Source of the DNA: Labia minor
Lineage: Eukaryota; Arthropoda; Insecta; Dermaptera; Spongiphoridae
Assembly (NCBI GenBank): GCA_963082975.1
Contig: OY720349.1
Coordinates: 50,077,962 to 50,141,961 of the forward strand
DNA length: 64,000 nt
Direction of reading: 5' to 3'
Part shown: positions 7,496 through 61,495 of the stretch, one piece after another
How the letters are laid out: each line of letters starts with the position of its first letter
Numbering within the stretch: position 1 is the stretch's first letter
Notes under the pieces: model-generated
What the model was told of the DNA's origin: nothing
Database searches by the model: none
The model's input: the letters and a program-made list of their open reading frames with translations, nothing else
Translations under genes and position numbers: made by a program

Positions 7496-8206
7496 TTAAA
7501 TAAGTTCGCGGAACGGAAATGATGAAATCAATTTTTATTGGAGTGTCTCCTCTCGACTATCTCGCAATTTGAATTGGATTAAATTACATAACATATTATA
7601 TTTAAATTAAATATAATTAATTATAAATTATAAATTAAAATTAATAAATAATATTTATTAAGCCAACGCGTGTTTGGCTCTTTGTTGATGGTCAAGAATA
7701 TATCTATATTTTTACGGTCAGTTTAGAGAAGAAAAATGAAAACATGGTAGGTAATCTCTTCCGGTTGAGCTACATTTCTCAAAAGTTGACAGTTAACTAC
7801 GAATTTTGAATAATGCTCGTATACCAAATTTCATGATTCTAGCTCAAACCGTTTTTGCGTAATCTTGTCTACACACACACACTCGCTTGGCACCGAAGAG
7901 CCGGGTTAACACCACTCCTTAGCCTCCTGTTTAGATTCAGGACCTTGATGGTAGACCCAAGTCTCATCCATGGTGATAAATCGACGAATAAAGTCGCTTT
8001 TATTCTTCTTAAAACTCTCCAAATGTTGCTAGCGAAGTCGCACTCGAATGTGGTTTTTCTCCATCGTTAGAGAATGTGGCATCCATTTTGAAACCGAAAT
8101 TAACACTCGAAATATTGCTTACTCTGCCCAATAAAATGCCTAATCTCTGTTAAATCTCTTTCAGTCTAATATTGATGAATTGATGGCGCTCCGCGAACTT
8201 ATTGAA
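7496..8206 (-). mobile_element. Mariner-family transposon remnant with a nested insertion
   Basis: Imperfect terminal inverted repeats built on AATAAGTTCGCGGARCG lie at 7496-7515 and 8187-8206. The minus-strand frame between about 8010 and 7895 reads QHLESFKKNKSDFIRRFI followed by TMDETWVYHQGPESKQEAKE and then a stop. This carries the mariner motif TMDETW with the first catalytic aspartate. The rest of the transposase is deleted. A family B element interrupts it at 7540-7885. It is a dead, internally deleted copy. Confidence 0.75.
7540..7885 (-). mobile_element. Family B HINE-like element, 5'-truncated (copy B1)
   Basis: Element 3' hairpin end (antisense GGAGTGTCTCC) at 7540, then the CGAGATAGT motif, the AT-rich tail and the 'GCTCAACCGGAAGAG' block. 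It stops in a CA microsatellite at 7885, where mariner sequence resumes. It lacks the 5' block. Confidence 0.75.
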
Positions 8207-8832: not shown

Positions 8833-9110
8833 TTGATTAATATTAAATAAAGGATTAAATGATAAAAGTTTTTTTTTTGGCAAGGCAGCGAGGACAAGAT
8901 GAAATGGAGGAAATTTGTTTTATGTTTCTCTATATATAAACTATTCATTATAAACTTTATCATTTATTAATTAACATTAGTCATCAATTAATTGAATTAT
9001 AATTATTCATTCATAAAATAACTGTAATGAATAGTTTAAAATGTTTCTCGTATTTTGTGTAATAACAAAAACAGTTTGATTGTTTCTGAAACTTTATTTT
9101 TATTATTTTT
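8833..9110. other. AT-rich spacer
   Basis: Nothing recognised. Confidence 0.4.
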
Positions 9111-9714
9111 ACTATCTCGTAAGAGATAGTATTGCGATCACGAAAATTTTCGATGTGGAGATTTTGATGTTTTTATACGTTTTGAAGGTTCCTGGATCAT
9201 TTTTACTAAGCTTGAGAAAAATGTCTGTGTGTGTGTATGTGTGTGTGTGTGTGTGTAACCTAGATTACGCAAAAACGGTTTGAGCTAGAATGATGAAATT
9301 TGGTACATGGGCATTATTCAAAATTCATAGTTTTCTATCAACTTTTGAGAAATGTAGCTCAACCGGAAGAGGGTCATTACCCACAACGTTTTAATTTTTT
9401 TTCTTCTAAAGTGACCGTAAAAATAAAGATATATGTTTGATAATTTTTCACATGATTAATAATTGTATAAAACTGCTATATATAGAATTTCAGCTTGATT
9501 GAATCACTGAAAGTACCAGAATTAATTTTTTAACACTGTAAATCACGCACCAGCACGTGACCATCAACAAAGAGCCAAACACGCGTTGGTTTAATAAATA
9601 TTATTTATTAATTTTAATTTATAATTTATAATTAATTAAATTTAATTTAAATATAATATATTATGTTATTTATTCCAATTCAAATTGCGAGATAGTCAAG
9701 TGGAGACACTACAG
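9111..9714 (+). mobile_element. Family B HINE-like element, complete (copy B2)
   Basis: Starts with the perfect hairpin ACTATCTC-GTAA-GAGATAGT. It continues through the 5' block, a GT microsatellite at about 9226-9256, and the block with AAATTTGGTACATGGGCAT and GCTCAACCGGAAGAGG. It ends with GCGAGATAGTC and a terminal hairpin of GTGGAG-ACA-CTMCAG form. The small ORF inside it is a by-product. Together with B8 it has a private 3' extension (9715-9863). Confidence 0.85.
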
Positions 9715-9863
9715 CTTATTTTATGATGATGTCAATTATTTGTGTATGGTCGTCAATTTGATGTTTTATTCTTGTATAATTTCTTAACATTCAAATTGAT
9801 ACTCTAGGGAACAGAAGGATAAAACTATAAACTAGATAACCCTTTCAAACTTAAAAGAATTTA
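9715..9863 (+). repeat. 149-bp flank shared with the 3' side of copy B8 (61347-61495)
   Basis: Sequence beyond the normal family B terminus is almost identical to that after B8, 51 kb away (about one visible difference). Identity stops abruptly at 9863/61495. The 5' flanks of the two copies differ. This fits mobilisation of flanking DNA by read-through of the 3' terminator, as known for Helitrons. Confidence 0.8.
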
Positions 9864-11861: not shown

Positions 11862-13236
11862 AGAATCAATAATGCAAAATTAATTAATATGTTATATATC
11901 AATTCATATGGTATTGTTATATTATAGTAATAGCAAATAATTAAAACAAAATTAAACAATATTGTTAAAAAATTATCAAAATTAATAATATTATTATATA
12001 TAAATAGGAAACTAATTACATTTTTGAATTTACTAATTTTTTATGTTTTTATTTGATCGTCACCTGGTAAAAAAATAAAATTTATATTTCTAAAATATAA
12101 AATTAATTTAATAATGTATTAAGAGATTAAATCGAACAGGACAGGGTTTTTTAATCTAATTTTTGACAGAGAAAGTGGCGTATTTTTTCATTTTATTTTT
12201 TTCTTTTCTCTATTTTAAATTGGATTTAATTTATTTTATCTCATTCTTTTGTTTCTTTTTCTACTTTTGCCATTTCGTTATTATCGTTAAAATCTTTCTG
12301 AAAAGAAGCATTATCTCCTTTCTTTCCATACTTATTTTAATACTAAAATTAGAATTTTACTGGTGAATGAATTACTCGTACAAGAAATACTTTAAGAAAA
12401 TATTCTTTAAAATTTAGAATATATTAAAATAATTTATTTTATTAAATTTAAAATATTTATATTTTACAAATTATTTAATTTGTTTCCATTTTTGTCTTAT
12501 ATTTTTATATATTTAATAAAATACATTTATTTTACTTATAGATATAACCCAAATGTGATGTGTGGATTATATTTTCTTCTTTCGACGAATTTCGAATGGC
12601 TTTATTCGTTATTGGTAAAACATAACTGTCAATTATGAATAAAATGCTTAAGCCTTACCAAAAAGGATTTCTAAATTTTTATACATTTTTTTATTAATAT
12701 TTTTTATGAATTTAGAATATTTATGTCTTACTTAATCAGATAAAATTAATCCTATTTATGATACGTCCAAGATGTTTCCGTTTTATAACCAAACTTTTTT
12801 CTTTTCAATTCCTTTTTATTATTTTTATAGAGGTATTGTATATATTTACTTTTTTAATATACGTAATTTTTGTAATTTTCTATCTAAATTATTTGTAACA
12901 AAATCAATAATTTAAAAGATATATTTCTTGATTTAATGATATTTAAATTCTAATCCAAATGATATTGGTGATACAAATAAATATTTAAATTGTAAATAAG
13001 TTATTCTAGTAATGAGATATAAAAATAAACTTGACACTATAACAGTAGTCAGCAAAATAAATCTCTCAAGACTGATACGAATAAACAATTGTCATAATAT
13101 AAATTATATATTATTCTTTTCGATACTTAGATTACAATTAGCCTTCAAATACTTTCATTTCTATATAAAATAGTAAAATAATTATGTCTTTATAATTATG
13201 TATACTTAAAATCATGATTAATATTAAATTTTAAGT
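11862..13236. other. AT-rich sequence, nothing recognised
   Basis: No convincing ORF, splice pair or repeat end. Confidence 0.5.
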
Positions 13237-13789
13237 AGATAGTATTGCGATCACAAAAATTTTCGATGTCGAGATTCCTGAGTCATTTTCATTAAGGTTG
13301 AGAAAAATGTCTGTGTATATGTGTGTATGTAGACAAGATTACGCAAAAACGTTTGAGTTAAAATCATGAAATTTGGTATACGGGCATTATTGAAAATTCG
13401 TAGTTTTCTATCAACTTTTGAAAAATGTAACTCAACCGGAATAGGGTCATTACCTACCATGTTTTGATTTTTTTTCCTTTAAAGTGAACGTAAAAATAAA
13501 GATATATGTATGATAATTTTCCGCATGATTAAAAATTGTATAAAACTGCTATATATAGAATTTCAGCTTGATTGAATCGCTGAAAGTACCAGAACTAATT
13601 TTTTAACACTGTAAATCACGCACCTGCACGTGACCATCATCAAAGAGCCAAACACGCGCTGGTTTAATAAATATTATTTATTAATTTTAATTTATAATTT
13701 ATAATTAATTAAATTTAATTGAAATATAATATATTATGTAATTTAATCCAATTCAAATTGCGAGATAGTCGAGTGGAGGCACACTCCGG
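13237..13789 (+). mobile_element. Family B HINE-like element, complete at 3' end (copy B3)
   Basis: Begins within the 5' hairpin (AGATAGTATTGCGATCAC), has a short internal deletion in the 5' block, a TG/TATG microsatellite, and the standard body. It ends GCGAGATAGTCGAGTGG plus a hairpin with CACTCC. Copy A2 follows only 81 bp later in the same orientation. Confidence 0.82.
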
Positions 13790-13870
13790 CTAATTTAAAA
13801 TTGAAAAACAAAAATATTTTAATTAGAAGATTTAAAAGAATTAAATCAATTATTTGCAAATCAATTTTTA

Positions 13871-14468
13871 CTTTCCCGCATACTTCGTATAAGGGAAGTA
13901 TTGGAATCGTCAAAAATTTCGACTTCGAGATTTCGATAGATCTTGACGTTTTAGACCTCCCTGAGTCGGAAAATACCATTTTTCGAATTATGTCTGTGTG
14001 TGTGTATGTATGTATGTATGTAATGTCTGTAAGCAAATTTACTCAAAAATTAATCAAGCTAGGACTTCGAAATTTGGTACATCGATATTATTCACAGTTT
14101 GTAGATTTCTATCAAAATTTCGTCAAAATCGGTTTACCGGAAGTGGTACTTTACCTACACTGGTTGCGTTTACCTTTCAAGTAAAGTACCAGTTTGCTTC
14201 GAGATATTTGCTTCATATTTTGTATATAGATTTAAAAATATGAAAAAAATTCAGATACCAAATTTTATCATGATCTGACTACCGGAAGTGACATTTTACC
14301 TATACAAGTAGCGTTAGGTGTAGATTATAAATATATATAATAGTGTTAAACCATTTTACTTTATAATTTAAATTAATTAGTTTGTTTATTTTTATTGTTG
14401 TTAAAACATAATAATAATAACCTAATTACCTATTTATATGCGGGAAAGTCTAGGGGAGGACACTCCCG
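13871..14468 (+). mobile_element. Family A HINE-like element, complete (copy A2)
   Basis: Starts CTTTCCCGCATACTTCGTAT and ends TATGCGGGAAAG followed by the hairpin GGGAG-GACA-CTCCC. Inside are a 5' block homologous to family B (GTATTGGAATCGTCAAAAAT against GTATTGCGATCACGAAAATT), a TGTGTATG microsatellite and two 'CCGGAAGTG' blocks. The two overlapping ORFs across it are not genes. Confidence 0.82.
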
Positions 14469-14751
14469 ATTTTTTACATTAATTTCAATTCCAACTAAAA
14501 TCATTTACATATCTAATAATTTAATATGCAATATTGTTTAAGGATTTATCTATGTTAGTAGCTAATCTTTAGGGCTTAAATTTAGAATTATGCAAATTTT
14601 GACATAATGTTAAATTAAACCACCTATCTTCTTTTCTTGGTTTTTAAGTACTATTATTAAAAAGAGAATTGGCTATAATATCTCTATAAACTACACTTTA
14701 TAAAAATAAAAGAGTAAGGAGTCACATTTAGGGCAGGGTTCCTATTGTTGG

Positions 14752-17138: not shown

Positions 17139-17380
17139 TTTGTTTACTTTTTTGCTGTCATAGAAACAAACAAAAAAGAAATTTCCTACTTAACCGACAC
17201 TTGATAATTTAGAATTATAAACAAAAACAATTGAACATCAAAAAAAAAAATCTCACTTAACCGACACTTGGTAATTTAAAACTATAAACAAATTGAACAT
17301 TTTCAAGATAGAAAGACAGAAAGATTTATACTTAAAACGTTTACAAGACTAATAAGATAAATTTTAGATTAATATATAAA
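17066..17380 (+). mobile_element. Helitron-like 5' end with TGTA microsatellite
   Basis: After A comes TCTATCTATCTATCTATATA, then TATAAAGGAGAGTGTTTGTATG and a (TGTA)n run at 17101-17138. A unit containing CTTAACCGACACTTG is repeated twice in tandem (about 17189-17310). It is cut off by, or nested beside, the family D Helitron at 17381. Confidence 0.5.
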
Positions 17381-18814
17381 TCTATATCTTCTATATATAT
17401 AAAAAAAGGTTTTTGTCTGCACATTGCTCAGAATTTAAAAATTTTTGCATATCTTCGCGTTTCATGACCTCTAGAATCCAAAAGTGACTTTAGAATTTTT
17501 CATGTCTGTCTGTCAGGAAAATAAGGATGCAATAGACTCAAAATTGGCTGAAACGATTTCTATGAAATTACATCACAATATTCTTATATACTTCTATGGT
17601 AACATAGGCTTTAAATTTTATTAATATCTAATCAATCAACAGCAGAATTTAATTTTTTGAAGTTTATATAGTTCTCCGTGTTGTTCATTCAATGAAATTA
17701 AAATATCAAAATGAAATGATCAAGAAATATTATACTCTATCTCTATTATAACATATACAATACTTACGAACCATAGGCGGAGGAAATATTAAAAGATATC
17801 ATTGCGGGTTCAGGCCAAATCGATCAACATTAATTAAGATATTTTCATTATGACAGAAATTCGAAAAAACCTCGAATTAAATATTTCTGTTCACTAATTA
17901 TTTGTAGACTTTAGTAAAACCTACGCATGACTCAATAGATCCGGATAAACTTTTTCAAATTTTGATCTTAAAATATATCTTGAAGGTAGTAAAGAAAGAG
18001 TAAGATGCGGAAATCAATTGTAAAATATTAGGTTACTCAGACGACTTAAATATAATAGGAGATTCGGCAATTGCAATTACAGATAGCTTGGAAAAATTAA
18101 TCGAGGGTAGGGAAAGAGATGAGGTTTGAAATTAATAATGATAAATATAAATATTTAGAATCAAACAGAAGCAGTATTAACATACAAAATGTAGAATTTG
18201 AATATGTAGAAAAATTGAATGTAATCATGAAGGATAATAATATTTGAGAAGAATTTAATACGAGGCTACAATCGGGAAAGGCCTGTTATCATGCAATAAA
18301 GAGGGTTATCTCATCAAAATTATTATAAAAGGGAATCAAAATTAAAATATATAAAACAATTATTTTGTCTGTTCCTGTTGTATTATATGGGTGTGAGACA
18401 TGGTCTATGATCTTAGGAGATAAGAGTGGATTTAGAGTATTTGAGAATAGGATTCTTCCCAGCATTTATGGGCCAAAGAAAGATGAGGACACCAAGGAAT
18501 GACGTAAGAGAAATAGAACAGAGGCTCAGGATAAGGACACTTGGAGAAATGTGGTTGTAGCTGCCAAGAACTTTCGAGTAGATAGATATAACATATTCAA
18601 TAATAATATATATAATTACTTTACTGATTAAATTAAAATATATTTTAAATAATCACACAATAAGAAATGAATGTTTTATGTTAAACATTGATTGAAACAA
18701 AATGGATGGAAACCTTTTACTACTTTCAACCAAATACTATGTACCACTCGGGGGTACAGGGGGCGGAGTACCCGTCTAGGTGTGAAGAGCGACGAAGGAG
18801 CTCTGAGCAGCTAG
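17381..18814 (+). mobile_element. Family D Helitron carrying a captured LINE fragment (copy D1)
   Basis: The 5' end is TC (TCTATATCTTCTATATATAT, preceded by A), then AAAAAAAGGTTTTTGTCTGC. The 3' end has the hairpin AGAGC...GCTCT and terminates in CTAG (18811-18814), followed by T. About 18000-18580 is homologous to the reverse transcriptase region of copy D2 but carries stops and a deletion of about 180 bp with GACG at its junction. Sharing both exact ends with D2 marks it as one transposing unit rather than a truncated LINE. Confidence 0.65.
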
Positions 18815-18896
18815 TATAATATATATATAATATGCCTCTCACGAAAAGAGAAAAATATCGGTAAAATTAACTAATCTACACGTCTATATAATTGTA

Positions 18897-19283: not shown

Positions 19284-19863
19284 CTGGAGTGTCTCCACTC
19301 GACTATCTCGCAAATTTGAATTGGATTAAATAACATATATTAATTTAAATTAAATTAATTAAATTATAAATTAAAATTAATAAATAATATTTATTAAACC
19401 AGCGCATGTTTGGATCTGTTGATGGCACCACGTCACGTGTTGGCGCGTGAGATTTGCAGTTTTAAAAAATTAATTCTGGTACTTTCAGCGATTCAATCAA
19501 GCTGAAATTCTATATATAGCAGTTTAATACAATTATTAATAAGGTGAAAAATTATCAAACATATATCTTTATTTTTACGCTCACTTTAGAAGAAAAAAAA
19601 TCATAACGTTGTAAGTAATGACCCTCTTCCGGTTGAGCTACATTTCTCAAATATGATAGAAAACTATGAATTTTGAATAATGCCCATGTACCAAATTTCA
19701 TGATTCTAGCTCAAACCGTTTTTGCGTAATCTTGGTTACATACTTACATACACATACACACACACAGGCATTTTTCTCAACCTTAGTGAAAATGATTCAG
19801 GAACCTTCAAAACATCAAAATCTCAACATCGAAAATTTTCGTGATTGCATCTTATGAGATAGT
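19284..19863 (-). mobile_element. Family B HINE-like element, complete (copy B4)
   Basis: The element 3' hairpin CTGGAG-TGT-CTCCAC begins at 19284. The 5' end (ACTATCTCATAAG) is at 19863. With B5 it shares private features: CAAATTTGCGAGATAG, CCAAACATGCGCTGG and CACGCGCCAACACGTGAC. The pair therefore forms a subfamily, lying head to head. Confidence 0.85.
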
Positions 19864-20223
19864 AAAATAGTCTATCATTACAATAAAAAAATATAATATA
19901 TATAAATTATTACAGGAAAAATAATAATATAAAATAAAAGACCATAAGATGAATAATATATTTTAATATTAATTTAATTGTTAAATAAATATATTGAAAA
20001 TACTAATTTCTTTTTTTTAATTTATATTTATTAAAAGAAAAAAATATACTAAGTATATACATTAATATATTTATATAAACAATTCGCAACACTCATTAAA
20101 ATTAAAAAAGTTTTCCATTATCTATTGTGTCATCAAGATGCTGATGAGGGAATATGAATGTAGAACCTGATTCCTGATATAAAACTTATAAAAATCTTAT
20201 TGATCTAGTAAATATAAGTATAG
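19864..20223. other. AT-rich sequence, nothing recognised
   Basis: No feature supported. Confidence 0.5.
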
Positions 20224-20676: not shown

Positions 20677-21405
20677 TATACATAGTTTTTTATAAGTAGT
20701 ATTACCCAATAAAAAAAATGAGTAAATTTCATTAAAAATTCTTTTTTTCCTTTATTGTAGAAAGTCATATAGGAGTACAATAAAATATATGCTATGTGAG
20801 AATACTCAATTCTAATTTGGTTATATCTCGTTTCGGAATGAATTGGAATTAATTATTATCCTCTGTAAATTTCACTAGTAGTATACGATGCGTTTGCAGG
20901 AAGCGTAGGCGTAGTGGGCGATCAATTGATCCCGGGGTCTGTAGCATAGCCTCTTTCCCTCGCTCGACAAAATGTCCCTGGCTTAACGAGTCGGAATCAG
21001 CTGAAAAACCGCTGCGCTAACAAGACAAAGGCTCTATTAAATTTTATATCAAAATTCCTCCTATCCTCTCTAACCCATATCTACCTAAATATTATACCTT
21101 CACAGTCTTGCAACGATGAAATTTGTACATTTTCTACTTTTAAGTTATTATATTAAATAAAAGATCTCAAAAAAAAAATTTCTAATAAAATTAGTTGCAT
21201 AAATTCAAGTACTAATTTTGCTATTTATATATTTTATAAAAAAATAAAATGTTTTTTTTTTTTAATAAATTTGACTATTAATTTTTTTTTAATTTAATAA
21301 TTTTATGACAGAGATAATTAATTCAAGTCACATATCATTTATATCTTATAAGTAAATAACTAGTTGATCACGTCAATATATTTTTATCTTAAAGAAACTA
21401 TTTTT
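20677..21405. other. AT-rich, with an unassigned GC-richer patch at 20880-21020
   Basis: The patch (containing GGCGTAGTGGGCGATCAATT) has no open frame, terminal repeat or RNA fold that I recognise. Confidence 0.3.
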
Positions 21406-21516
21406 ACTATTTCGCCAGAGATAGTATTGCGATCACGAAAATTTTGTCGAGATTTTGATGTTTTTATAGGTTTTGAAGGTACCTGAATCATTTTCACTAA
21501 GGTTGAGAAAAATGCC

Positions 21517-21551
<35 letters not shown>

Positions 21552-22007
21552 ATGTAACCAAGATTACGCAAAAACGGTTTGAGCTAGAATGATGAAATTT
21601 GGTACATGGGCATTATTCAAAATTCATAGTTTTCTATCAACTTTTGAGAAATGTAGCTCAACCGGAAGAGGGTCATTACTTACAACGTTTTGATTTGTTT
21701 TCTTCTAAAGTGACCGTAAAAATAAAGATATGTTTGATAATTTTTCACATGATTAATAATTGTATAAAACTGCTATATATAGAATTTCAGCTTGATTGAA
21801 TCGCTGAAAGTACCAGAATTAATTTTTAACACTGCAAATCTCACGCGCCAACACGTGACATGGTGCCATCAACAGATCCAAACATGCGCTGGTTTAATAA
21901 ATATTATTTATTAATTTTAATTTATAATTTAATTAATTTAATTTAAATTAATATATGTTATTTAATCCAATTCAAATTTGCGAGATAGTCGAGTGGAGAC
22001 ACTCCAG
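21406..22007 (+). mobile_element. Family B HINE-like element, complete (copy B5)
   Basis: Starts ACTATTTCGCCAGAGATAGT (hairpin), then a TG/TATG microsatellite at about 21516-21555. It ends GCGAGATAGTCGAGTGGAGA plus CACTCCAG at 22007. Closest relative in the window is B4, in opposite orientation with a 1.5-kb spacer. Confidence 0.85.
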
Positions 22008-22788
22008 ATATATTTTTCTTTAATATGAAATCATTTATTGAACGCATCTTTCTAATTTATTTCAATTAACTATCAAATCACGTCCCATTTAAATATTTTC
22101 GATTTAGGTCAATTTCAACAAGTAAATATTTATTTATTTTCATAAATTATTTCTAATTATATTTTTCATACATAAATAAATAATTAATTGGCATATATTA
22201 AATCCGGGAAATTTAATCTATCTCTTCTCTCTTGCTCATTTAAATTTAATGTTTTTTTTTCTAACGCATTCTTGTACTTCAATAGTGATAATTTTTAGTT
22301 TATTTCGGAATAAGTCATTTTTGTTACATTTTTCTCTTTATCAAGTTCCGAAGATTTCATATCAAAAATATATAAGAAAAACAATCTTATGTTATATATA
22401 TATTTGTCTATTTTTATTATTATATTTTTTTAATTAAAATAGTATGAAAAGTTGATTTATATAATACATAGTTTTTGAATGATTGGGTAAAAATAAAATT
22501 ACCCTAGAGCAATTTACAACTTTTCTCTGATTCATCGTATGTCGGCTCTCAGGCTTCACTCTATCAACAGTTTTTTTCCTATAAATAAAGTTTTTTTTAA
22601 AAAAAAACTTTTATAATAAACCACTAAGGTATTTTAATTAAGCAAAGTAAAAAAAATGAAAGCTGTCTTAGAATAGATTATTAAGCTTAAAATTATTAAT
22701 GTATTTTCTATTCTATCTATTATATCTATACTATAATAATATTTTATCTGATCCATATATATCATATATTTGTGTACTTTACTTTTTT
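22008..22788. other. AT-rich sequence, nothing recognised
   Basis: No feature supported. Confidence 0.5.
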
Positions 22789-23338
22789 ACTATTTTGCTA
22801 GAGATAGTATTGCGATCGCGAAAATTTTCAATGTCGATATTTTGTTGTTTTTATAAGTTTTGAAGGTTCTTGATTCATTTTCACTAAGATTGAGGAAAAA
22901 TCTCTCTCTCTCTCTCTGTATGTACGGTTTGAGCTAGAATCATGAAATTTGGTACATGAAAATTTGTAGTTTTCTATCAACTTTTGAGAAATGTAGCTCA
23001 TTTGGAAGAGGACCATTACCTACCACGTTTTGATTTTTTTTCCTCTAAACTGACCGTAAAAATAAAGATATATGTTTGATAGTTTTTTACATGATAAAAA
23101 ATTGTATAAAACTGCTATATATTGAATTTCAGCTTGATTGAATCGCTGAAAGTACCAGAATTAATTTTTTAACACTGCTTTAATCACGCACCAGCACGTG
23201 ACCATCAACAAAGAGCCAAACACGCGTTGGCTTAATAAATATTATTTATTAATTTTAATTTATAATTTATAATTAATTTTATTTAATTTAAATATAATAC
23301 ATATTATTTAATCCAATTCAAATTGCGAGATACTCCAG
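22789..23338 (+). mobile_element. Family B HINE-like element (copy B6)
   Basis: Starts ACTATTTTGCTAGAGATAGT. The microsatellite is (TC)n here instead of (GT)n. A short piece with the usual GATTACGCAAAAAC text is missing. The 3' end is shortened to GCGAGATACTCCAG, so the terminal hairpin is lost. Confidence 0.8.
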
Positions 23339-25760: not shown

Positions 25761-26784
25761 GAAATGGAAAGCATTTTTGAACCAAAGAAGAAATTCAGAA
25801 GAGAATTATGAATGTTTGTGGAAAAGGTTATAATCATAATATAAATCGACCCATTTATAAAAGGCGTTTTTATTCAAGAAAATGATAATAAAATTATTTT
25901 GGAAATGTCATAATTTACCAAGCCAAATGTGATAAATGAACTTTAATATCTTAAGTACTCAAATGAAACAAACAAGATATATATTATTTGGTTTTTGATC
26001 TTTAATTCAATTCATTCAAATAAAAATATTTGTTTATTTAATGTTATACTAACTAAATTTTCAATTATATTTTAATTTATATTTATGTCATAAAGTTAAT
26101 AAACAAAATTTATTTATTATAAACTAATATATGGAATTGAAATTGATAATCTCTCTTTAATAAAAACAAAGAAGAAAGCATTTTTTTCAAAATATCAAAT
26201 TAATAATTCTTGAATAATCTTTAAACTAATTCTGATTTGATACTGTATTGTAAATTTTGCTAGTGGGCCCTATTTTGTGCTACCTTCATCAAACTCCCTC
26301 TTTATATATTAACATATATTTTTATATATTAACTTTTCTCGCTGTCTTTATAAATAAATTTTTCTCAACACAAAATTTACTGTTCTCAATTTTTGTTAAT
26401 GTTTTAAAATTTTAAATTATATTTTTTTCAATTTATGATAATATTTTTGTTTTAGTATAATATTAAACATAAATTAATATTTACAAAGTAAATTAAAGTA
26501 AATATCACTTTGTATTTATTTAAAATTTATTTATAAAATATTTTGAACCACAGGCAAATAAAAATCTAAGGTTAAAAATAGTTTTACCATATTTGGAAAT
26601 AAAATATTTTTTAATCTTATATATAAATATATTATAACAACAAGGTCAACAGGCTAAGGGCCTGTAAGACAACAATGTTACCCCTTGCCTCTTGAGATAA
26701 CGTGCCTCAAGGCCATAGTACTTTTAACTAGAAGAGGGAGGTTAATAAAAAGGAAGATGAAAATTTATTTATATCGAGAAATCG
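25761..26784. other. AT-rich; unassigned patch at 26642-26720
   Basis: The patch contains AGGCTAAGGGCCTGTAAGAC and is GC-richer. It may be a repeat fragment, but I cannot place it. Confidence 0.35.
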
Positions 26785-27165
26785 GCAGTTGGACTCTTTT
26801 GTATGATAATGCACCATCACATCGTTCGCGACTTGTAACTGAATTTTTGGTCAAAAATCACGTTATTCCTTTGCATCATTCGCCCTATTCACCAGATCTG
26901 GCTTCGTTAGACTTCTATCTGTTCCCTAAACTGCATTTGACGATGAAAGGAAAGTGGCACGCATCTATTGAAGCCATTGAGAAGGCGACGACCGACTTCC
27001 TAAAAACCATTCCAAAAAGGACATGGAGAAGTCGTTTGACAACTTGTTGGAGCGTGCAAATTTGTGTATCGATGCAGAAGGGGAATACATTGATTAATAA
27101 AAATGATTTGTTCCAAAATGTACATTGGTTTTTTGTTTTTTTTAAAAAGTTCGGTTTCTTTTGGA
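26785..27165 (+). pseudogene. Mariner transposase C-terminal remnant (DD34D)
   Basis: The frame reads SWTLLYDNAPSHRSRLVTEF and later HHSPYSPDLASLDFYLFPKL. This gives the second and third catalytic aspartates (DNAPSH; LDFYLF) separated by 34 residues, the mariner spacing. After about 26999 the frame shifts by one: the homologous text (MEKSFDNLLERANLCIDAEG and a stop) continues in another frame to about 27098. AAGTTCGGTTTCTTTTGGAA at 27147-27166 may be the terminal repeat region. The N-terminal half is missing, so it is dead. Confidence 0.8.
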
Positions 27166-27239
27166 ATGGAGGGTGTATTAGTTATATCTATATGTATGTA
27201 TCCGGTTTTAGAGGGGAACACTGCAGGTGAGTTACGTTA

Positions 27240-32512: not shown

Positions 32513-32937
32513 CTTGAGTGTATCCACTTGACTATCTCGAAAATATGAATTGGATTAATTAACATTATATATTTAAATTAAATTTAATTAATTATAAATT
32601 AAAATCAATAAATATTATTTATTAAACCAGTGCGTGTTTGGCTCTTTGTCACGTGCTGGCGAGTGATTTGCAGTGTTAAAAAATCAATTTCGGTACTTTC
32701 ATCAAGCTGAAATTCTATATATAACAGTTTTATACAATTTTTAATCATATGAAAAACCATCAAACATATATCTTTATTTTTACAGTCAGTTTAGAGGAAA
32801 AAAAATGAAAACGTGGTAGGTAATAAACATCTTCCGAATGAGCTACATTTCTCAAAAGTTGATAGATTACTACGAATTTTGAATAATGCCCGTGTACCAA
32901 ATTTCATTATTCTAGCTCTGCGTAATCTTGCGAGCAT

Positions 32938-32978
<41 letters not shown>

Positions 32979-33086
32979 CAGAAACAGACATTTTTCTAAA
33001 CCTTAGTGAAAATGACCCAGGAGCCTTCAAAATGTATAAAAACATCAAATTCTCGACATCGAAAATTTTCATGATCGCGAGATAGT
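32513..33086 (-). mobile_element. Family B HINE-like element, complete (copy B7)
   Basis: Element 3' end at 32513 (antisense CTTGAGTGTATCCACTTGAC, hairpin degraded) and 5' end CGCGAGATAGT at 33086. The microsatellite is (CA)n(GA)n at 32938-32981. Overlapping ORFs of about 90 codons on both strands come from this repeat and are not genes. Confidence 0.83.
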
Positions 33087-34371
33087 AAAAATAATAATTA
33101 TTAATATTTATTAATATTTGTGATATAATTTGAACTCATGAAATTTACTTCAATTAACTAGTATAAAGATACAATAAATTGTATGTTATTAATATAGATC
33201 AAATAAATACAATAAAAAATTTAAATAAATCTAAATTACATATATATTTAATGTTTTCTTTTTTTGAATGATTTAGAATGAATTAAATAGACGCACTCAT
33301 TTATAAATATATAAACTGAATCAATTCAACAAAAATAAATTCATTTTGAATGTTGGGATTTAACTCATTGTTTGTTATTATTAATTATTGTATATTAATA
33401 TAGAAAATTTATAAATACACAAGGACAGTAACTAAAAAGTGAGAGAAGGGGGTTGTGTTCAGCTTTTTGACGTACTCAACAGATGTCTTCAGTTTATGGT
33501 AATCGTATGCTTATGTTTATGAATGAGGGCCTGGAATCAAAATAAATAGCCAATTTTCTGTTTTTGTACAATTAAACACTGGTTGTTAATCTAGTTTTAA
33601 TTTCACAATGAAGAACTAGTTCGTAAATTAGAAAATTAAATGGAAGTTTAATGAAAATTGTTGACATTATTTATTTAACTTTTTAGTAGAGTAACTCCAA
33701 CTTGTTTATTTTCAATGGAAATCAGAACATGAACTTCCTGATAAAACGTGCGCATCCAATCGCAGAATTCAATTTAAAATGTGATATCTTTTTTCTTATT
33801 TAATTAAACTCCACTAATCAAGCTATTGAAATATAATATAATCACTGAATAAGAATATGAAGAGTACCTAATTTTTATATTAATAGTAGTAGATATAAAC
33901 AAATATGATGGAATTTTTTAATTAAATTTTGATTTAATAAAAAAAGAAATACTCATAATATATGATGATACATGTCTTTGGGAAATTGAAAGATAATATT
34001 TTTTAAGAATACTATCTGATTAAATATTATATTTTTTTTCAAAATCTTACTTGACAAATAATACTTTTTATTTATTGATTTTTTATTATTATAATATTTT
34101 GAATTTAAATTTATATAAAATGCAATTAGACTTGTTAAAAAACTATCTTTAGAATATTCTTATTTTATAGCCTCTAATATTACTAATACTTTATTTTAAT
34201 TCCATTAACGATGATTGATTATATAATAAATCATATATTATATAAGATTTGTTAGATTTCAGTAATGGAAAGGATTTCGTAATATATGACTCCGATCATC
34301 ATATTACGTTATTTAAAAAAACGAAAAATATAAAAATTTATTTTAAAAAATATATAAAAATAATGGAAAAG
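33087..34371. other. AT-rich sequence, nothing recognised
   Basis: A small patch at 33440-33550 is GC-richer and has a MSSVYG/GTAATC donor-like site, but support is poor. Confidence 0.4.
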
Positions 34372-35368: not shown

Positions 35369-36502
35369 TTATATAATAATATTCGAAAAAAAAATGTATA
35401 CAATTTTAAATTTAAATTTTGTCCACACCCGTTTTAAATGATATTTCCATTTCATTGATATCTTTCTCCTTATCTTATTAATGTGTGGAGAAAGTGACGG
35501 GGCTATTTGCCATGATCTAATATAATTTACTAACACAATATGATATTTAATTTTACAAACAACTACTAATTGATTTCTATAAAAAAGCTTGGGACGGGTG
35601 CCTTCCTTTGAATGTCTCGAACTAATATTATTCACATTATTTATACTTTGATCAATATTATCAATTTTAATTTCATTTTGAATTAATGTTGGGAAATTAG
35701 AAACTGTATTAGGGGATGACGGAAAATTATGTTTATTAATTTCGTTATACGTAGATTCATGAGATCGCTTTTTATTTTCTATAAATCTTAGATTAATTTC
35801 TTCTGGTTTTGAAATTGTTTGGTCAAGATTGATCTTATTTATTTCTATATATTCACGTTCATTTGGAGTTAATGGAGGGGGTGTTGGAGATGGAGTGTTC
35901 TTTGGAGGATAATGATCGAATTCAGGAGTCTTTTCTCTTATAAGTTCTGGACAAGGTAACGTATCAATAGAATTATCTTCACAAGGAGATAACACAGGTG
36001 TATCCGCATCATATGATTGAGCAATTTTCTCAAGAGCATTGAATTGAATAGGTGGGGAGGGTGGAGGTGAAGAATAGAGTGAGATTTGAGATTTTTCTGA
36101 GAGAGAATTATCCATATTATTGTGTAAGGAATTTTCTTCCAATTCCTTTTTAATTAATTTCTTGGTTTCTGTAATTTGAGGTGGATCTTCTAAATTGATT
36201 AATTCTGCATGAGGTTTTATACTTTGTTCTTTAGAACATTTATATAAAAATTCTTTATTTGAATTCATTGTTTCATCATTGTTAATATTTTTATCATTAA
36301 TATGTTTAGAGGGCAAAATATTTTCTGATATTCTATTTTTTGGTAATAAATTAGAAGAATGTAATGATTTTAAAATTGATTTTTCTTGTATTAATTTATT
36401 CATTGGTAAAGTTATATCAATTGAAGATAATTTATGATTGTTTATTGTATTTTTTTCATTAATATCACTTGGTTCTTTTTTTAACTTCAATATTATATTC
36501 AA
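35369..36502 (-). CDS. Second ORF of the Gypsy fossil, function unknown
   Basis: A 377-codon frame rich in Asn, Ser, Pro, Glu and Lys. The first two thirds look disordered, with proline runs (LYSSPPPSPPIQF; NTPSPTPPPLTP). The last quarter is basic and more structured (RPKLFYRNQLVVVCKIKYHI...). There is no zinc knuckle, DTG protease motif, YVDD-type polymerase motif or integrase motif. Some Gypsy relatives carry extra ORFs and this may be one. It sits after the Gag-like ORF in element order. Confidence 0.6.
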   Translation of the reverse strand: MNIILKLKKEPSDINEKNTINNHKLSSIDITLPMNKLIQEKSILKSLHSSNLLPKNRISENILPSKHINDKNINNDETMNSNKEFLYKCSKEQSIKPHAELINLEDPPQITETKKLIKKELEENSLHNNMDNSLSEKSQISLYSSPPPSPPIQFNALEKIAQSYDADTPVLSPCEDNSIDTLPCPELIREKTPEFDHYPPKNTPSPTPPPLTPNEREYIEINKINLDQTISKPEEINLRFIENKKRSHESTYNEINKHNFPSSPNTVSNFPTLIQNEIKIDNIDQSINNVNNISSRHSKEGTRPKLFYRNQLVVVCKIKYHIVLVNYIRSWQIAPSLSPHINKIRRKISMKWKYHLKRVWTKFKFKIVYIFFSNIII

Positions 36503-37034
36503 AATTTAATTTGTTCTGGTCAAGGAATTGTCCATTATCAATTTTATTTTTCTTATAATTGTTTGAATTTAATATTGTTGATTTATTTTCAAAAGAGGCA
36601 AATTTTTTAATCATATCTGGTTCATTTAGCCAATCATTAGTTTTTTGTTTTTTATAATCCGCCGAACTGTGGTAGCGGGGAGGGGGGTGGTAATTTTGAT
36701 AATTATTAGAATGAGAGCGATTTCTGGGAATGAATTGTCTATTGTAATTTGAATCGTAGAGATTACTCTCGCTTTTTGTTTCGCGAAATATGTCCCTAAG
36801 ATCCCTTCTCAAATTCTCCCAGGTGGTTAGACTTACGTGGGTCAGCATTTCATTGGCACTGCCCTGAATTTGGTCTCTAACGTACCTGAGGAAAAATTCG
36901 TGCTGGTCATAAGGAAATGTACTATATATTTTATCAACCGTATTAATAAATCTTTGGAGTACGTTTGACTCGCCCTTAAAGATAGGAATACATTGTAACA
37001 AATGATCTGTATTCATTTTCATCATTAATTTCAT
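36465..37034 (-). CDS. Gag-like ORF of the Gypsy fossil
   Basis: 189 codons. Text such as IPIFKGESNVLQRFINTVDK and WENLRRDLRDIF resembles the capsid-type Gag of insect Gypsy/errantivirus elements, in which 'IPxFxGxxxxLxxFI' and 'xWxxLxxxLxxxF' are conserved. The C-terminal part is Asn/Arg/Tyr rich and could bind nucleic acid, without CCHC knuckles. It would form the particle if made. It is described here only as a fossil part. Confidence 0.7.
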   Translation of the reverse strand: MKLMMKMNTDHLLQCIPIFKGESNVLQRFINTVDKIYSTFPYDQHEFFLRYVRDQIQGSANEMLTHVSLTTWENLRRDLRDIFRETKSESNLYDSNYNRQFIPRNRSHSNNYQNYHPPPRYHSSADYKKQKTNDWLNEPDMIKKFASFENKSTILNSNNYKKNKIDNGQFLDQNKLNFEYNIEVKKRTK

Positions 37035-37864
37035 TTTTCAATTACTTTATTTATTGTATTATTTAATTTTATTATTATTATTTTACGTTGATTATTATTA
37101 TTTTATTTTGATTATTATTATTTTATTTCGATTATTTTATTTTATTTTGATTATTAATTTTTTTTATTTTGATTATTATTTTTTTTATTTTGATTATTAT
37201 TTTATTTTAATTATTATTATTTTATTATTATTAATTTTAATTCATTTTATTATTTTATTTTTTTATTTTAATTAATTTATTTATTTATTTTTCATAAAAT
37301 TTTATTTATTTTAATTTATGTTAGAAAATTTATATAATTGTTAAATTATTTATTTTAAAATTTATTTATTATATTTTTTTTTATGTTAGAAAATTTATAT
37401 AATTGTTAAATTATTTATTTTAAAATTTATTTATTATATATTTTTTTTTTATGTTAGAAAATTTATTTAATTGTTAAGGTATTTTATTTTAAAATGTATT
37501 TATTATATTTTTATGTTAAATTTAGGGTATGACTGTTTGTATAGCTCACGATTTTTCTTTCTTCTTTCTTGTTGACTGCGCCCTTCGGATAAGTATTATC
37601 CTAGTATTTGTAGATGACCCGGGATGATTTGCTCGTACCGTTCCTCGTTAAGGCAATGGACGTCGCTTTCCTCGGTGTCGTGTAGTCGTGGTAGCTCGTA
37701 GGTTTGTAGTGGCTGCTGCTTCTTGGTTGCTGAAGACGATGTTCAGACTCCGTCGATTGCTCAGGAGATGAAGCAGGAATTTAATCACCGTTCGCGATAA
37801 AAACTTTAAAAAGTTGCCGTTTGTATTGTATAAACGTTCGCGAAATCCTACCGACTGTGCGCCA
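37035..37864 (-). other. Leader of the Gypsy fossil with low-complexity and tandem repeats
   Basis: Primer site next to 37864, a GC-richer leader (37540-37860), three tandem units of about 65 bp containing TTATGTTAGAAAATTTAT (37316-37520), and a TTATTTTGATTATTA-type run (37060-37280) before the Gag-like ORF. Confidence 0.7.
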
Positions 37865-40173: not shown

Positions 40174-40447
40174 GACTACATCATTCATTTTATTTTACTA
40201 GTTTTGTTAATTTTGAAAAATTGCTTAATAATATATTAAGTGTTTACGTCATTTTTATATATATATCTATATATTCTAACAGAAAGTTTAAAGTTTCATT
40301 GTAATCTAAAGTTGAAATATTGTAACATTGGAACAAGTGAGTCCAAAACTAAACAAGAAAGGGTTGTAACTTGTGAAAGATAAATATCTGAACTTTATAT
40401 ATATATATATATATATTGAAATATATTGATATATATATTTATAGTAA
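40174..40447. other. AT-rich spacer with a TA microsatellite
   Basis: (TA)n at about 40397-40417. Nothing else seen. Confidence 0.5.
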
Positions 40448-42282
40448 TCTATATAAATAAAAAAAGGTTTTTGTCTGTACATTGCTAAGAATTTAAAATT
40501 TTTGCATATCTTCGAGTTTCATGACCTCTAGAATTCAAAAGTGACTTTAGAATTTTCCATGTCTGTCTGTCTGTCTGTCCGGAAAATAAGGATCTTATAG
40601 ACTCTAAATTGCCTGAACCGATTTCTATGAAATTACATCACAATATTCTTATATACCTCTATAGTAACATAGGCTATACATTTTATTAATATCTAATCAA
40701 TAACAGCAGAAATTAATTTTTTAAAGTTTATATAATTCTCCGTTTTGTTCATTCAAGAGCCTGGCATGAATATAATAAAAAAATAAATAAATCAATTAAT
40801 TTAAATTAATACTATTGATGAATGTATATATTGTTAATTTATCTATAGTTTTATATCGTTAATTATTATAAATTGTCTCAAGTCTCTAACTTTGCATTTT
40901 CTCAAATTTCATTATAATTAAAAATATTCAATAAAAATCAAGCAATGAAAATAAAATATCAAAATGGAATGATCAAGAAATATTATACTCTATTTCTCTA
41001 TTATAACATATACAATACTTACGAACCATAGGCGGAGGAAATATTAAGAAATATCATTGCGGGTTCAGGCGAAATCGATCAACATTAATTAAGATATTTT
41101 CATTATGACAGATATTAGAAAAAAAAACCTCGAATTCAATATTTCTGTTCACTAATTATTTGTAGACTTTAGTATGACTCAATAGATCCGGATAAACTTT
41201 TTAAAATTTTGATTTTCAAATTTGTCTTGAAGTTAGTAAAAAAAGAGTAAGATGCGGAAATCCAATGTAAAATATTAGGTTACTCAGACGACTTAAATAT
41301 AATAGGAGATTCGGGAATTGCAATTACAGATAGCGAGGAAAAATTAATGGACGTAGGAAAAGAGATAGGGTTTGAAATTAATAGTGATAAGAAAAAATAT
41401 CTAGTAACAAAGAGGAACAGTATTAACATACAAAATCTTAATATACAAAATGTAGAATTTGAATATGTAGAAAAATTGAATGTAATCACGAAGGATAATA
41501 ATATTTGGGAAGAATTTAAATCGAGGTTGCAATCGGGAAACGCCTGTTATCATGCAGTAAAGGAGCTTATCTCATCAAAATTATTATCAAAGGGAATCAA
41601 AATTAAAACATATAAAACAATTATTTTGCCTGTTGTATTATATGGGTGTGAGGCATGGCCTTTGACCTTAGGAGATGAGAGTAGATTAAGAGTATTTGAG
41701 AATAGGATTCTTACCAGCAATTATGAGCCAAAGAATGATGAGGACACCAGGGAATGACGGAGACACTGCATGCGGAGAAATTGCATGACCTCAATGCATC
41801 TCCAGAAATAGTTTGGATTTTTAAAGCGAGAAGGCTGCGATAGGTGGGGCATGTGGCTAGAATGGGAGAGAAAAAAGATATTGGTGGGGAGACCGATTGG
41901 AAAACGTCCGATTGGAAGACCAAGGACGCGTGGAAGGGACGTAAGAGAGATGGAACAGGGGCTCTGGACAGGTACACTTGGAGAAATGTGGTTGTTGGGG
42001 CCAAGAACTTTCATGTACAGTTGAGCCACATAGATAGATAGATAGATATAACTAATACAATAATAATATATATAATTAATTTACTGATTAAATTAAAATA
42101 CATTTTAAATAATCACACAAAAAGAAATGAATGTTTTATGTTTTAATAATATACTGATTGTGAAACAAAATTGATTAAAACCTTTTACTACATTCAACCA
42201 AATACTATGTACCACTCGGGGGTACAGGGGGCGGGGCCCCCGTCTAGGTGTGAATACCACCGAAGGCGCTCTCAGCACCTAG
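40448..42282 (+). mobile_element. Family D Helitron carrying a captured LINE fragment (copy D2)
   Basis: Inserted between A (40447) and T (42283). 5' TCTATATAAATAAAAAAAGG, then a block with CCTGAACCGATTTCTATGAA, as in insect Helitrons. 3' ends ...CACCGAAGGCGCTCTCAGCA CCTAG. It contains most of a reverse-transcriptase C-terminal half (41266-41757) and, in other frames, its tail region to about 42015. There is no Rep/helicase, so it is non-autonomous. It has about 190 bp (40755-40945) absent from D1. Confidence 0.65.
41266..41757 (+). pseudogene. Captured LINE reverse-transcriptase segment
   Basis: Reads LGYSDDLNIIGDSG (the catalytic Y-x-D-D box as YSDD), then the thumb-region text KTYKTIILPVVLYGCEAWPL and ESRLRVFENRIL, and stops after KNDEDTRE. 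Following frames keep the expected tail (GRPIGKRPIGRPRTRG). The fingers, first catalytic Asp, endonuclease and ORF1 are missing. The family is a non-LTR retrotransposon; the clade was not determined. The segment is dead but well preserved, so capture or transposition was fairly recent. Confidence 0.75.
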
Positions 42283-43381
42283 TACTGATATATTCTGAAC
42301 CAATTGATACTTACTGTTCATTTTGTAATATAGGCATAAAAAGTATGAACGTTTATTTTAGAAAGTTAAAATATTTTCTATTTTATAATTAAATTAATTT
42401 TAAAATTTTTATCCTATATTTATATAATATAAATATAAATATTAAAGAAATGAGTGTTGATCGTATTTCGCGGATGTACAGAATTTGAGTGGAATCGCAT
42501 TCATCTTTTGATGTAAAGTATTCATTAAATCAGTAAATTTAATATTAAGTGGTAAGTTTTTGCTCTCTAATAACGAAAAAAATTATCTTAAAGTAGAAAT
42601 ATCAATACAAATATTATTTTATCTGTAAATATCTTTAAATTTAGAATTTGCTATGAAATCGAAAAATTTATAATAAATAAAGACAAAACCAAAGTTGAAT
42701 TATTTCTATTTTGTTAAAAAGTTAAACAATTTAAATAAAAAAAATTCTAATTTTTATATAAATTTTATTCTACTTGTAAAAAATAAGTCAGAAATAATTA
42801 TAAATCCAAGTAAGAAAAATAATATTAAAAAAAGAAAATATAGTTTTAGGATGTAAAAGTAAATAAATTATTAATTAATCAATCAATTATTTTTCTGGAA
42901 AGTAAATTAAATAATATGATATAAATAAAAGGAAAAATTATCATAATATAATTCATTTTTTTTTTAAATATTTCACTATGATTGTTTATATTAAAAATAG
43001 GTCACCAATCATTATTGACATCTGTCACAACACGGATATGTCGTTATCACTCTGTCGGTAGGTTGGATTGGCAGTAGAGATAAAACTTACCCTGTGTTTG
43101 TTATTTATGAACTTATGAGAATTAATTTTATCCACCAAGATTGAATGATGATCTAACAACAATCTCATAGTTTAATTCTATCGGCCAAGTTAAACAATAA
43201 AAACTCTAATTTCATTTGATTCTAAAAACTAATTTTGAATCACTAATTAGTAGACATAGAATCATCACATAGGAACATAAAACCTACATATATATATATA
43301 TATTATAGATGTTGCTTTATTTATAATTACAAATTATTATTATTATAATTGCTCTGAAAATGTAAAGTTTTCATTTGGAAA
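42283..43381. other. AT-rich; nothing certain
   Basis: A strong donor-like AGTG/GTAAGTTTTTG sits at 42551 after a GC-richer patch (42455-42515), without a clear open frame. Confidence 0.35.
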
Positions 43382-58700: not shown

Positions 58701-60767
58701 TTATTTATATTTAAAAATCTGTTAATTTACATTATAAATAAAATATCTAGTATTTCTGTACTTTAAGTTTAAATAAACAATTTAACATTATGAAAAAATT
58801 TTTTAATAGCATTTATTTTATTTTGATATAAAATAAAAATTTAATATTCACGAAAGAATCATCTTCTTTTAACCAGGCACTATACGATTTATTAGTAAAT
58901 AATGGATTTATAAAAATAAAATTTACTCTGGTTAAAAAAAATTGTTCATAAGAGTATTCTTTTCAATGTTTATTTATAAAATCCTCCTGACCTTTGAATA
59001 ATCATATTTCTTGTTTTCTTCGAATTGAATAATTATATTTTATTAAATAATTATTTAAAAATAGAAAAATAATGACCCCTTCAATTCAGGTTCCAACAAT
59101 TAACATTAAATTCAGATACATATATACAGATTACAGATCAAAGTAATGTATAAACTACTTTATTATTATTATTACTTTTTAATCGTTTTATATTTTCTTG
59201 TTTACGCATCTATTAACTACACAAAATATAAACATATATATTATATAAATATTTAAAATGTGTATTTTATTGTTTAATATTTATTAACCTATACATACCA
59301 TATAGGTGTATACATAATAAACCGCATAATTATTATGATATAAGTATATTCATATGTATGGACTAATAAAATTAATGGTTGCATTAAATTTTTGTGACTA
59401 TGAATTAATGTTATATTCAGTTTAATTATTTATATATTTAAATTATAATATATACCTAGAGTTAATCAAGTTACTTACCAATGACATTTTTCATTTTGTA
59501 TGTAAATATAAAATCTCAATAAAAAAAGTGATTTTTATATTGCGTTGAAAAAATTAAAAAATTCAATAGTTTTTCAAAGGAAAATAACTTATTTGATAAA
59601 ATGAATAATATTCGAATTTGAACTTGAAATAATATTAAAATTATAATTAATCAAATAAAAAAAAAATCATAAATAAAAATACATGTTTCTTGATAATTAA
59701 TGCAAAATACACTATCTACTGTAAGACACATTTTCATTATATTTGAAAAAAAAATAATTGCAAATTTTTTATTTAAAAATTCACATTAGATAATATACAC
59801 CTATATATACACGTATTTTTGCCTGTATAAAGAACTTTCATCAAACAATTATAAAAAGTCTTGGATATCAAATTTTAAAACCTGAGCATATATATATTTG
59901 CCCAATAATCGCGCGAGTAGTTAAACCAAATAAAAAAATCACAAAATTACAAACTGTTTCATTCATGATTTAAAGATATGATAATTAATTTTTAAATATA
60001 AATGTATTATTAATAATATTTTGATCAAAATATTGTAGAGAGCCTAATTGCAAAATTTTCAATTGAATAATTTATGTTCAGACAGCTACTACTTATTAGG
60101 AGTGAGTGATTGTGTTTAATTAGTGCTTGTGTCTTTTTAATGAAATAATAATTAAAAAATAATTAAAAAATTCTTTCTTCAGGTTTTCATTATTTACGTT
60201 GTAAAACCTTTAACTTAAGAAAATAAAATGTGACCATATTTAAGAGAATATACTCATAAACTCGATTCAAAATTTAAATAAAAATAAAATAACATAATAA
60301 AATTAAATTCATGTAAATAGGAAATAGAATTGAAGGCCAAGGTAAGTCTATTTTAAATTTATTTTGTTAAAAATGTTGGTTATGAGAAAATAAAAATAAT
60401 TGATGGCTCAGGTGAACTTAAAGTTCATAAAAAATATTAAGTATACCTTTTTAACTTCTGGCTTATTTCTAAAACGCAATGAAAATACAAAATACTTCAT
60501 TTCATTTGCCACATTTTAATTGTTAATGGGTGATGTATTTAATTTTCTACTCTTGTCTATTTATTTTCTCAAATAACAAGTAACTTCTTAAGCAAATTCT
60601 CTTGTTTTGCAACTACAATACTTAATTAATATTTGTTTATTTATCGAAAATGCCATTATTCAATTAAATAATGAAAATAACAAGCTGCATTTCATATATA
60701 CTTACTTATCTATTAAATTTATTTAGTTGAAGTTTTACATTTTATTAAATAATTACTACAATTAATT
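58701..60767. other. AT-rich sequence, nothing certain
   Basis: A consensus-grade donor (GCCAAG/GTAAGT, 60340) follows a 21-nt open piece (EIELKAK). It is too short to call an exon. Confidence 0.4.
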
Positions 60768-60825
60768 ACTATCTCGTAAGAAGTTTTGAAGGTTCCTGAA
60801 TCATTTTCACTAAGATTGAGAAAAA

Positions 60826-60891
<66 letters not shown>

Positions 60892-61346
60892 GACAAGATT
60901 ACGCAAAAACGGTTTGAGTTAGAATCATGAAATTTGGTACATCGGCATTATTCAAAATTCGTAGTTTTCTATCAACTTTTGAGAAATGTAGCTCAACCGG
61001 AAGAGGGTCTTTACCTACAACGTTTTGATTTGTTTTCTTCTAAAGTGACCGTAAAAATAAAGATATATGTTTGATAATTTTTCACATGATTAATAATTGT
61101 ATAAAACTGCTATATATAGAATTTCAGCTTGATTGAATCACTGAAAGTACCAGAATTAATTTTTTAAACACTGCAAATTTCACGCGCCAACACGTGACAC
61201 AAAGAGCCAAACACGCGTTGGTTTAATAAATATTATTTATTAATTTTAATTTATAATTTATAATTAATTAAATTTAATTTAAATATAATATATTATGTTA
61301 TTTATTCCAATTCAAATTGCGAGATAGTCAAGTGGAGACACTCCAG
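60768..61346 (+). mobile_element. Family B HINE-like element (copy B8)
   Basis: Starts ACTATCTCGTAAG, then lacks about 55 bp of the 5' block. It has the longest (GT)n in the window (60828-60882) and ends GCGAGATAGTCAAGTGGAGA plus CACTCCAG. Shares TTATTCCAATTCAAATTGCG and the AAGTGG variant with B2 only. Confidence 0.85.
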
Positions 61347-61495
61347 CTTATTTTATGATGATGTCAATCATTTGTGTATGGTCGTCAATTTGATGTTTTA
61401 TTCTTGTATAATTTCTTAACATTCAAATTGATACTCTAGGGAACAGAAGGATAAAACTATAAACTAGATAACCCTTTCAAACTTAAAAGAATTTA
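61347..61495 (+). repeat. 149-bp flank shared with copy B2 (9715-9863)
   Basis: Near-identical to the sequence after B2. Homology ends abruptly at 61495. Confidence 0.8.

Follow-up and report, generated by a model that had tools for sequence, protein, structure and literature searches.

Three related families of DINE-1/HINE-like elements in the genome of Labia minor and the divergence of their ends

A stretch of 64,000 nucleotides from the dermapteran Labia minor (assembly GCA_963082975.1, contig OY720349.1, positions 50,077,962 to 50,141,961; hereafter the window) contains three repeat families, A, B and C, that differ in their 5′ motifs (TTTTTACTTTCCCGCATA, TTTTTACTATCTCG and TTTTTACCGACCGAC, respectively). 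Do families with such different ends belong to one kind of element, and how did the ends come to differ? An initial annotation proposed that all three follow the plan of non-autonomous Helentrons and that one lineage swaps its terminal motif and 3′ hairpin together, perhaps to match different Rep specificities. Our analysis makes it very probable that A, B and C represent related families of non-autonomous, protein-less rolling-circle elements of the DINE-1/HINE kind, and that their ends differ chiefly by joint drift of the paired end copies, shown for A and B, rather than by module exchange. Recent insertions are numerous in this genome, which also has nested empty sites and open frames for Rep-helicases and so provides material for examining the little-tested rules of Helentron end recognition.

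Shared layout and classification

Counting fragments, we found 2 copies of A, 8 of B and 5 of C, which together occupy 11.7% of the window. The three families have in common a T-run, a 5′ subTIR, a partial inverted copy of it, a core, a microsatellite, a 3′ inverted motif and a hairpin. Element A1 (13865–14469, + strand) reads TTTTT, then ACTTTCC...CTCCC, then GA, and 39 other places in the genome follow the same plan. Its 5′ subTIR ACTTTCCCGCATA (13870–13882, +) was unchanged in 38 of 40 aligned copies, and the adjacent inverted repeat GGGAAGT, a partial complement of the subTIR (13893–13899, +), was kept in 39 of 40. The TGTG/TGTA microsatellite (13991–14022, +) is followed by a core block homologous in A, B and C (14022–14170, +) that includes the core box GAAATTTGGTACA (14069–14081, +). 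The 3′ subTIR TATGCGGGAAAGT (14437–14449, +) was unchanged in 36 of 40 copies, and the hairpin GGGAG-GACA-CTCCC (14454–14467, +) was exact in 32 of 40.

The second A copy, A2 (1–198, −), is the 5′ part of a longer A composite and runs off the window. Family B comprises B1 (9106–9713, +), B2 (13232–13787, +; 5′ motif lost), B3 (21401–22006, +), B4 (60766–61345, +; deletion past the 5′ motif), B5 (19284–19867, −), B6 (32514–33091, −), the fragment B7 (7540–7882, −) and the 3′-truncated B8 (22784–23338, +). Family C comprises C1 (58063–58697, +), C2 (2147–2759, −), C3 (23765–24323, −), C4 (48345–48954, +) and C5 (11796–11862, −), of which C5 is a 5′ head only.

The motifs, inverted copies and hairpins quoted in the initial annotation were all present in the window. 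A structural scan, which required at least four T, AC plus 7 nt, an exact inverted 9-mer 200–1500 bp downstream and then a hairpin, returned four matches (A1, C1, C2 and C3), whereas 40 dinucleotide shuffles averaged 0.025 matches and never gave more than one; the B copies and C4 were missed through a changed motif, hairpin or T-run. At least four T preceded the 5′ motif in 12 of the 13 copies with a recognisable motif, compared with 114 of 5094 AC sites in the window, these copies included. The core box GAAATTTGGTAYA occurred 11 times in the window (0.03 expected), every time inside an A, B or C copy, and C3 and C4 carry variants of it. With the microsatellite cut out, shuffle tests gave z values of 18.9 (A–B), 11.1 (A–C) and 9.0 (B–C) for the core past that block and 8.2, 6.6 and 4.7, respectively, for the heads. 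Three of 12 cross-family comparisons were unclear, namely the B3–C4 heads (89 of 500 shuffles as good) and the post-microsatellite parts of A1–C4 (42 of 500) and B3–C4 (4 of 500). The scan and the homologous cores bear out the proposal of one shared architecture. A, B and C are probably related by descent in their 5′ half, and A and B also by their 3′ end, while the 3′ half of C is different.

The C elements also carry a palindrome, TGACGTCA, at window positions 58508, 48754, 2329 and 2349, and 23937 and 23957. Each of the four longer C copies has it, C2 and C3 have a second one 20 bp away, and there is no other copy in the window. Presumably it resembles a CRE/ATF site.

The individual features of the plan are developed to different degrees. 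All tested subTIR positions paired in A (13/13) and C (10/10), and B paired over only 9/9; against the published subTIR length of 11–15 bp, A falls within the range, C is borderline and B, with 9–10 bp, is short. The inverted repeat beside the 5′ subTIR matches at 6 of 7 positions in A, 8 of 8 in B and 5 of 7 in C, and its fold was equalled by 9, 0 and 80 of 200 shuffles in A, B and C, respectively, so that this feature is weak for C. The 3′ hairpin is present in all three families, with 7 (A), 13 (B) and 6 (C) of 200 shuffles folding as well. A microsatellite had been said always to follow the 5′ block; one does stand there, but its type differs by family (TGTG/TGTA in A and most B, GTCY in C) and it is nearly lost in C3. 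As for coding capacity, which the plan lacks, 10 ORFs overlapping elements gave a single Pfam match (E 0.0048), under its cut-off and antisense to B6; the analysis also covered 76 window ORFs of at least 68 aa. The ends, ACTTTCC...CTCCCGA and similar, are not the canonical Helitron 5′ TC and 3′ CTRR. Rfam at gathering scores gave no match in the search, and exact motif scans gave none among viral contigs and genome contigs.

This layout is the DINE-1/HINE plan already published, as far as the consulted sections of the two sources describe it (PMC2374699, PMC4067079), and because of that agreement the class assignment is supported by structure, feature by feature. In those sections, Drosophila DINE-1 likewise has subTIRs, a partial 5′ inverted repeat, a block A interrupted by a microsatellite, a middle that varies, a 3′ subTIR, a stem-loop and a T-rich target; it differs in its subTIR letters, in a 13-bp subTIR as against the shorter one of B, and in the microsatellite, since GTCY occurs here only in C (PMC2374699). 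HINEs and Helentrons, in the portions seen of Thomas et al. 2014 (PMC4067079), share the subTIRs, the 3′ palindrome, the T strings at the ends and the occurrence of several families per genome, and no target modification is reported for them; unlike them, our families lack a same-end autonomous partner among the elements examined, and no endonuclease turned up in the searched parts of the three Rep proteins. The Cg_HINE elements of the Pacific oyster, as presented in an excerpt of their description (PMC7492417), are likewise related families with joint diagnostic changes in subTIR, inverted repeat, stem-loop and microsatellite, and their partner was likewise not found; they contain tandem central repeats, whereas only a repeated head in C is found here. 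The canonical bat Helitron Helraiser resembles our families in its 3′ hairpin and in flank read-through and differs in its ends, TC...CTAG, according to the part of that report consulted (PMC4778049). New here are three co-resident families in one genome, a nested insertion that serves as an empty site, and mirrored changes between A and B.

Insertion sites, copy numbers and mechanism

The ends were analyzed at 40 A places, namely A2 of the window and 39 places that the search had located. As the DINE-1/HINE plan predicts, ACTTTCC starts all 40, and in 37 the match extends through the final base of the predicted 3′ end, the exceptions being two altered ends (L037 and L046) and the cut A2 (L048). 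The 5′ T-run reaches at least five in 38 of 40; the two short ones immediately follow another A's tail (L021) and a complete C (L043). The hairpin is followed by GA (14 places), GAA (14), GC (6) or others (3) and then by T's, with a right T-run of at least five in 35 of 37 measurable places and TTTAT instead of TTTTT in L015 and L019.

One A copy, L013, lies inside a B element, so that other B copies serve as a paralogous empty site. At the insertion point B6 reads CATTTTTTTTCC, B2 and B8 GATTTTTTTTCC, B1 AATTTTTTTTCT, and B3 and B4 GATTTGTTTTCT; the filled site reads CATTTTT-[A]-GAATTTTTTTTCC. Four of the six B copies have 8 T at this point, and the filled site has 5 + 8. The insertion seems to have added TTTTT with no other visible target duplication, a gain that by the T-runs alone is indistinguishable from a T5 target duplication. 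A second candidate, L009, is weak as an empty site, with a paralogous window stretch that is 82.7% alike and on the left side only. Consensus ends that miss the inverted motifs, or a target-site duplication, had been named as findings that would contradict the assignment; the ends of the A places coincide with the predicted ones apart from the exceptions above, and no duplication beyond T is visible at the L013 site.

Most likely, a Rep-helicase made elsewhere in the genome would recognise the 5′ subTIR, alone or folded with the adjacent inverted repeat, nick there, and peel off and copy one strand. Copying would stop at the 3′ subTIR and hairpin, and the product would join at a T-run, with the terminal T's belonging to the element. 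The genome does contain Rep-helicase genes with a Helentron signature, and the three families may be substrates of such Reps. Direct observations are the element anatomy, the constant ends, the T-run target and the one TTTTT-adding insertion. Another reading takes the three families for MITEs derived from a cut-and-paste transposon that duplicates TT or TTTTT at its target. The T-runs on both sides and the five T gained at L013 would suit it, and a 2-bp TT duplication is discussed for DINE-1 in the sections consulted of Yang and Barbash (PMC2374699). MITEs have terminal inverted repeats and a target duplication, however, and here the 3′ inverted repeat lies inside the element, with a hairpin after it, L013 has no duplication beyond T, the right side of L015 and L019 is TTTAT, and the flank common to B1 and B4 (see below) is shared on one side only. 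We consider the MITE reading highly improbable.

Across the 604-Mb genome (71 contigs), a first look gave 744 candidates for A, 3552 for C (query C1) and 6255 for B (query B3), which are candidates rather than verified copies. Among 40 scored places per family, taken best-first and with the query included, identity to the query copy was 96–100% for A, 93–100% for C and 86–100% for B; the best identity apart from the query itself was 99%, 98% and 94%, respectively. These values suggest that A is youngest, then C, and B oldest, an order that is a reading rather than a measurement, since the lists are best-first and a diverged query lowers identity. In a best-first sample, A1 and 39 others differed from their consensus by a mean of 1.1% (0.3–3.3%). 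The 72,220 flank bases around 39 A copies contained 11 B and 5 C stretches.

How the ends differ between families

Three distinct hairpins had been described, but those of A and B proved to be variants of one sequence, and only the 3′ end of C is unrelated to the other two. Between A and B, the 3′ ends can be aligned throughout, with a score equalled by 0 of 1000 shuffles; for A–C and B–C, 296 and 147 of 1000 shuffles, respectively, did as well. The suggested covariation of the 5′ motif with its 3′ inverted copy was found: the 9 sites of the 5′ motif include 2 at which A and B differ, and both differences are mirrored in the 3′ copy and, by reading, also in the 5′ inverted repeat. A simple simulation that let the arms change independently produced such mirrored changes in 1.7–2.7 per 10,000 runs. 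Among 40 copies of family A, six carry a change in one of the two subTIRs, and in no case is the other changed to match, which indicates that the pairing is preserved in the source element rather than in each copy.

The initial annotation attributed the different ends to exchange of motif and hairpin as one module that follows different Rep proteins. For this speaks the homologous core beside a C 3′ end and hairpin unrelated to those of A and B. For A and B, we reject exchange on the basis of their homologous 3′ ends, with substitutions mirrored in both subTIRs, together with concordant heads and tails. In 60 of 60 heads the 5′ motif belonged to the same family as the core, and in 62 of 63 tails the 3′ subTIR likewise matched the hairpin; the remaining one (L051) is not a tail but an A head in reverse orientation next to an inverted C tail. 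Thus, no mixed-family ends occurred in 60 heads and 62 tails (325,223 bases from 78 sources), a sample gathered around A copies and Rep loci, restricted to heads with a motif within one mismatch, and therefore no fair census. For C, the unrelated 3′ end is as exchange would have it, but the sampled sequence contains no mixed ends, and an old lineage whose 3′ half was replaced would explain C equally well. Central repeats and stems of DINE-1 also vary between Drosophila species, the stem with compensation (Yang and Barbash), and D. willistoni has DINE-1 types with different subTIRs in one genome, as stated in the consulted sections of that paper (PMC2374699). Module exchange by one lineage is accordingly improbable, and joint drift of the paired copies is the reading we prefer. 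A bolder version of joint drift, doubtful at present, is that the three motif copies (5′, adjacent inverted and 3′ inverted) evolve in concert as families succeed one another from B through C to A; the end signal would turn over by paired substitution, with the 5′ hairpin and end-to-end pairing as alternatives that set start and stop.

Several copies are composites or share flanks. In each of the four longer C copies the 5′ head recurs in degenerate form about 205–290 bp in (near 58358–58445 in C1), like a head-to-tail array with its first unit cut. The composite to which A2 belongs has C sequence inside, and L050 repeats both its A–C junction, which falls at A position 446, and its tail type. 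Beyond the hairpin, B1 (9714–9863, +) and B4 (61346–61495, +) have 150 bp in common, 149 letters of which are identical, and their 5′ flanks are unrelated; the B1 hairpin has one mismatch and that of B4 is whole. Read-through or one-sided recombination would give such a one-sided shared flank, and read-through of flanks is shown for Helraiser in the consulted part of its report (PMC4778049). Break-induced or other recombination between B copies, instead of transposition read-through, is a plausible source to which we give somewhat less than even weight. Fifteen of the 20 B1–B4 substitutions in 9179–9863 fall left of 9399, and this uneven divergence speaks for some recombination, as does a patch near 9539–9553 that resembles B3 and B5. 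Against it stand the abrupt end of the shared segment beyond the element and the unrelated 5′ flanks, which read-through predicts likewise. An upstream flank seemingly shared by B5 and B8 was gone under low-complexity filtering, and the upstream pairs that the filter left (A2–C5, B3–C5 and B4–B5) are short and were taken for AT-rich chance.

Rep-helicase loci and other features

The Pfam profile PF14214 gave 104 matches in the genome (126 candidates, all scored), several of which are pieces of one gene. Of 30 Rep loci read, 23 have a GLPH-type motif, four (L079–L082) have RVEFQNRGSPHIH and three had neither by the pattern used; GSPH is also present in L088 and L089. The GLPH type is as in Helitrons, and the S form is given for Helentrons in the portions consulted of Thomas et al. 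(PMC4067079). An endonuclease is a defining Helentron domain. Three GSPH-type proteins have Helitron_like_N and PIF1 domains, and Pfam found no endonuclease in their C-terminal parts (1374 of 1785, 1569 of 2181 and 1043 of 1754 residues searched, the first being the protein of the L082/L080 element described next), so that these Reps may belong to a Helitron2-like group without endonuclease.

Comparison of the 16-kb surroundings of L082 and L080 delimited one element, bounded by TTTTACCACG and AAAAGTAGAAAA and 8143 bp long in one copy, with no A, B or C motif and, by the test used, no inverted subTIR of at least 9 bp. B and C matches in one of these stretches fall outside the Rep element. A, B and C align weakly with the middle of the Helentron-type element (best E 7e-7), but these alignments are AT-rich and away from its ends, and we took them for composition. 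No A, B or C 5′ motif was found in 9.9 kb around L088, and no A, B or C motif on the 3′ side read of L089. The autonomous Helentron with the same ends that the initial annotation called for was thus not among the three Helentron-signature elements examined, one in two copies and two in part, and the other Rep loci were read at most as stretches of about 3.5 kb. The idea that the ends match different Rep specificities found no support in these three.

L088 (G000:C1:47863600-47868600) has an open frame of 2181 aa for its Helentron-signature Rep-helicase, whose C-terminus looks by eye like a Ulp1-type protease, and a 7-bp hairpin lies about 260 bp past the frame. At G000:C5:46739897-46792979, five Helitron_like_N matches of equal score share the same stops and are spaced 9.8, 9.8, 5.7 and 5.7 kb apart; this is apparently a tandem array of a decayed Helitron.

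The window has other features as well. The ORF at 26658–27230 (+) had no Pfam match at 0.001, and we take its stretch DNAPSH...HSPYSPDL to be mariner-like. Two long ORFs on the − strand (36468–37037 and 35372–36505) likewise had no Pfam match at 0.001, and one of them appears gag-like by eye. Another repeat with a GTCT stretch occupies 17365–18824 and 40422–42293, and its ORF at 41251–41754 has by eye the look of a reverse transcriptase.
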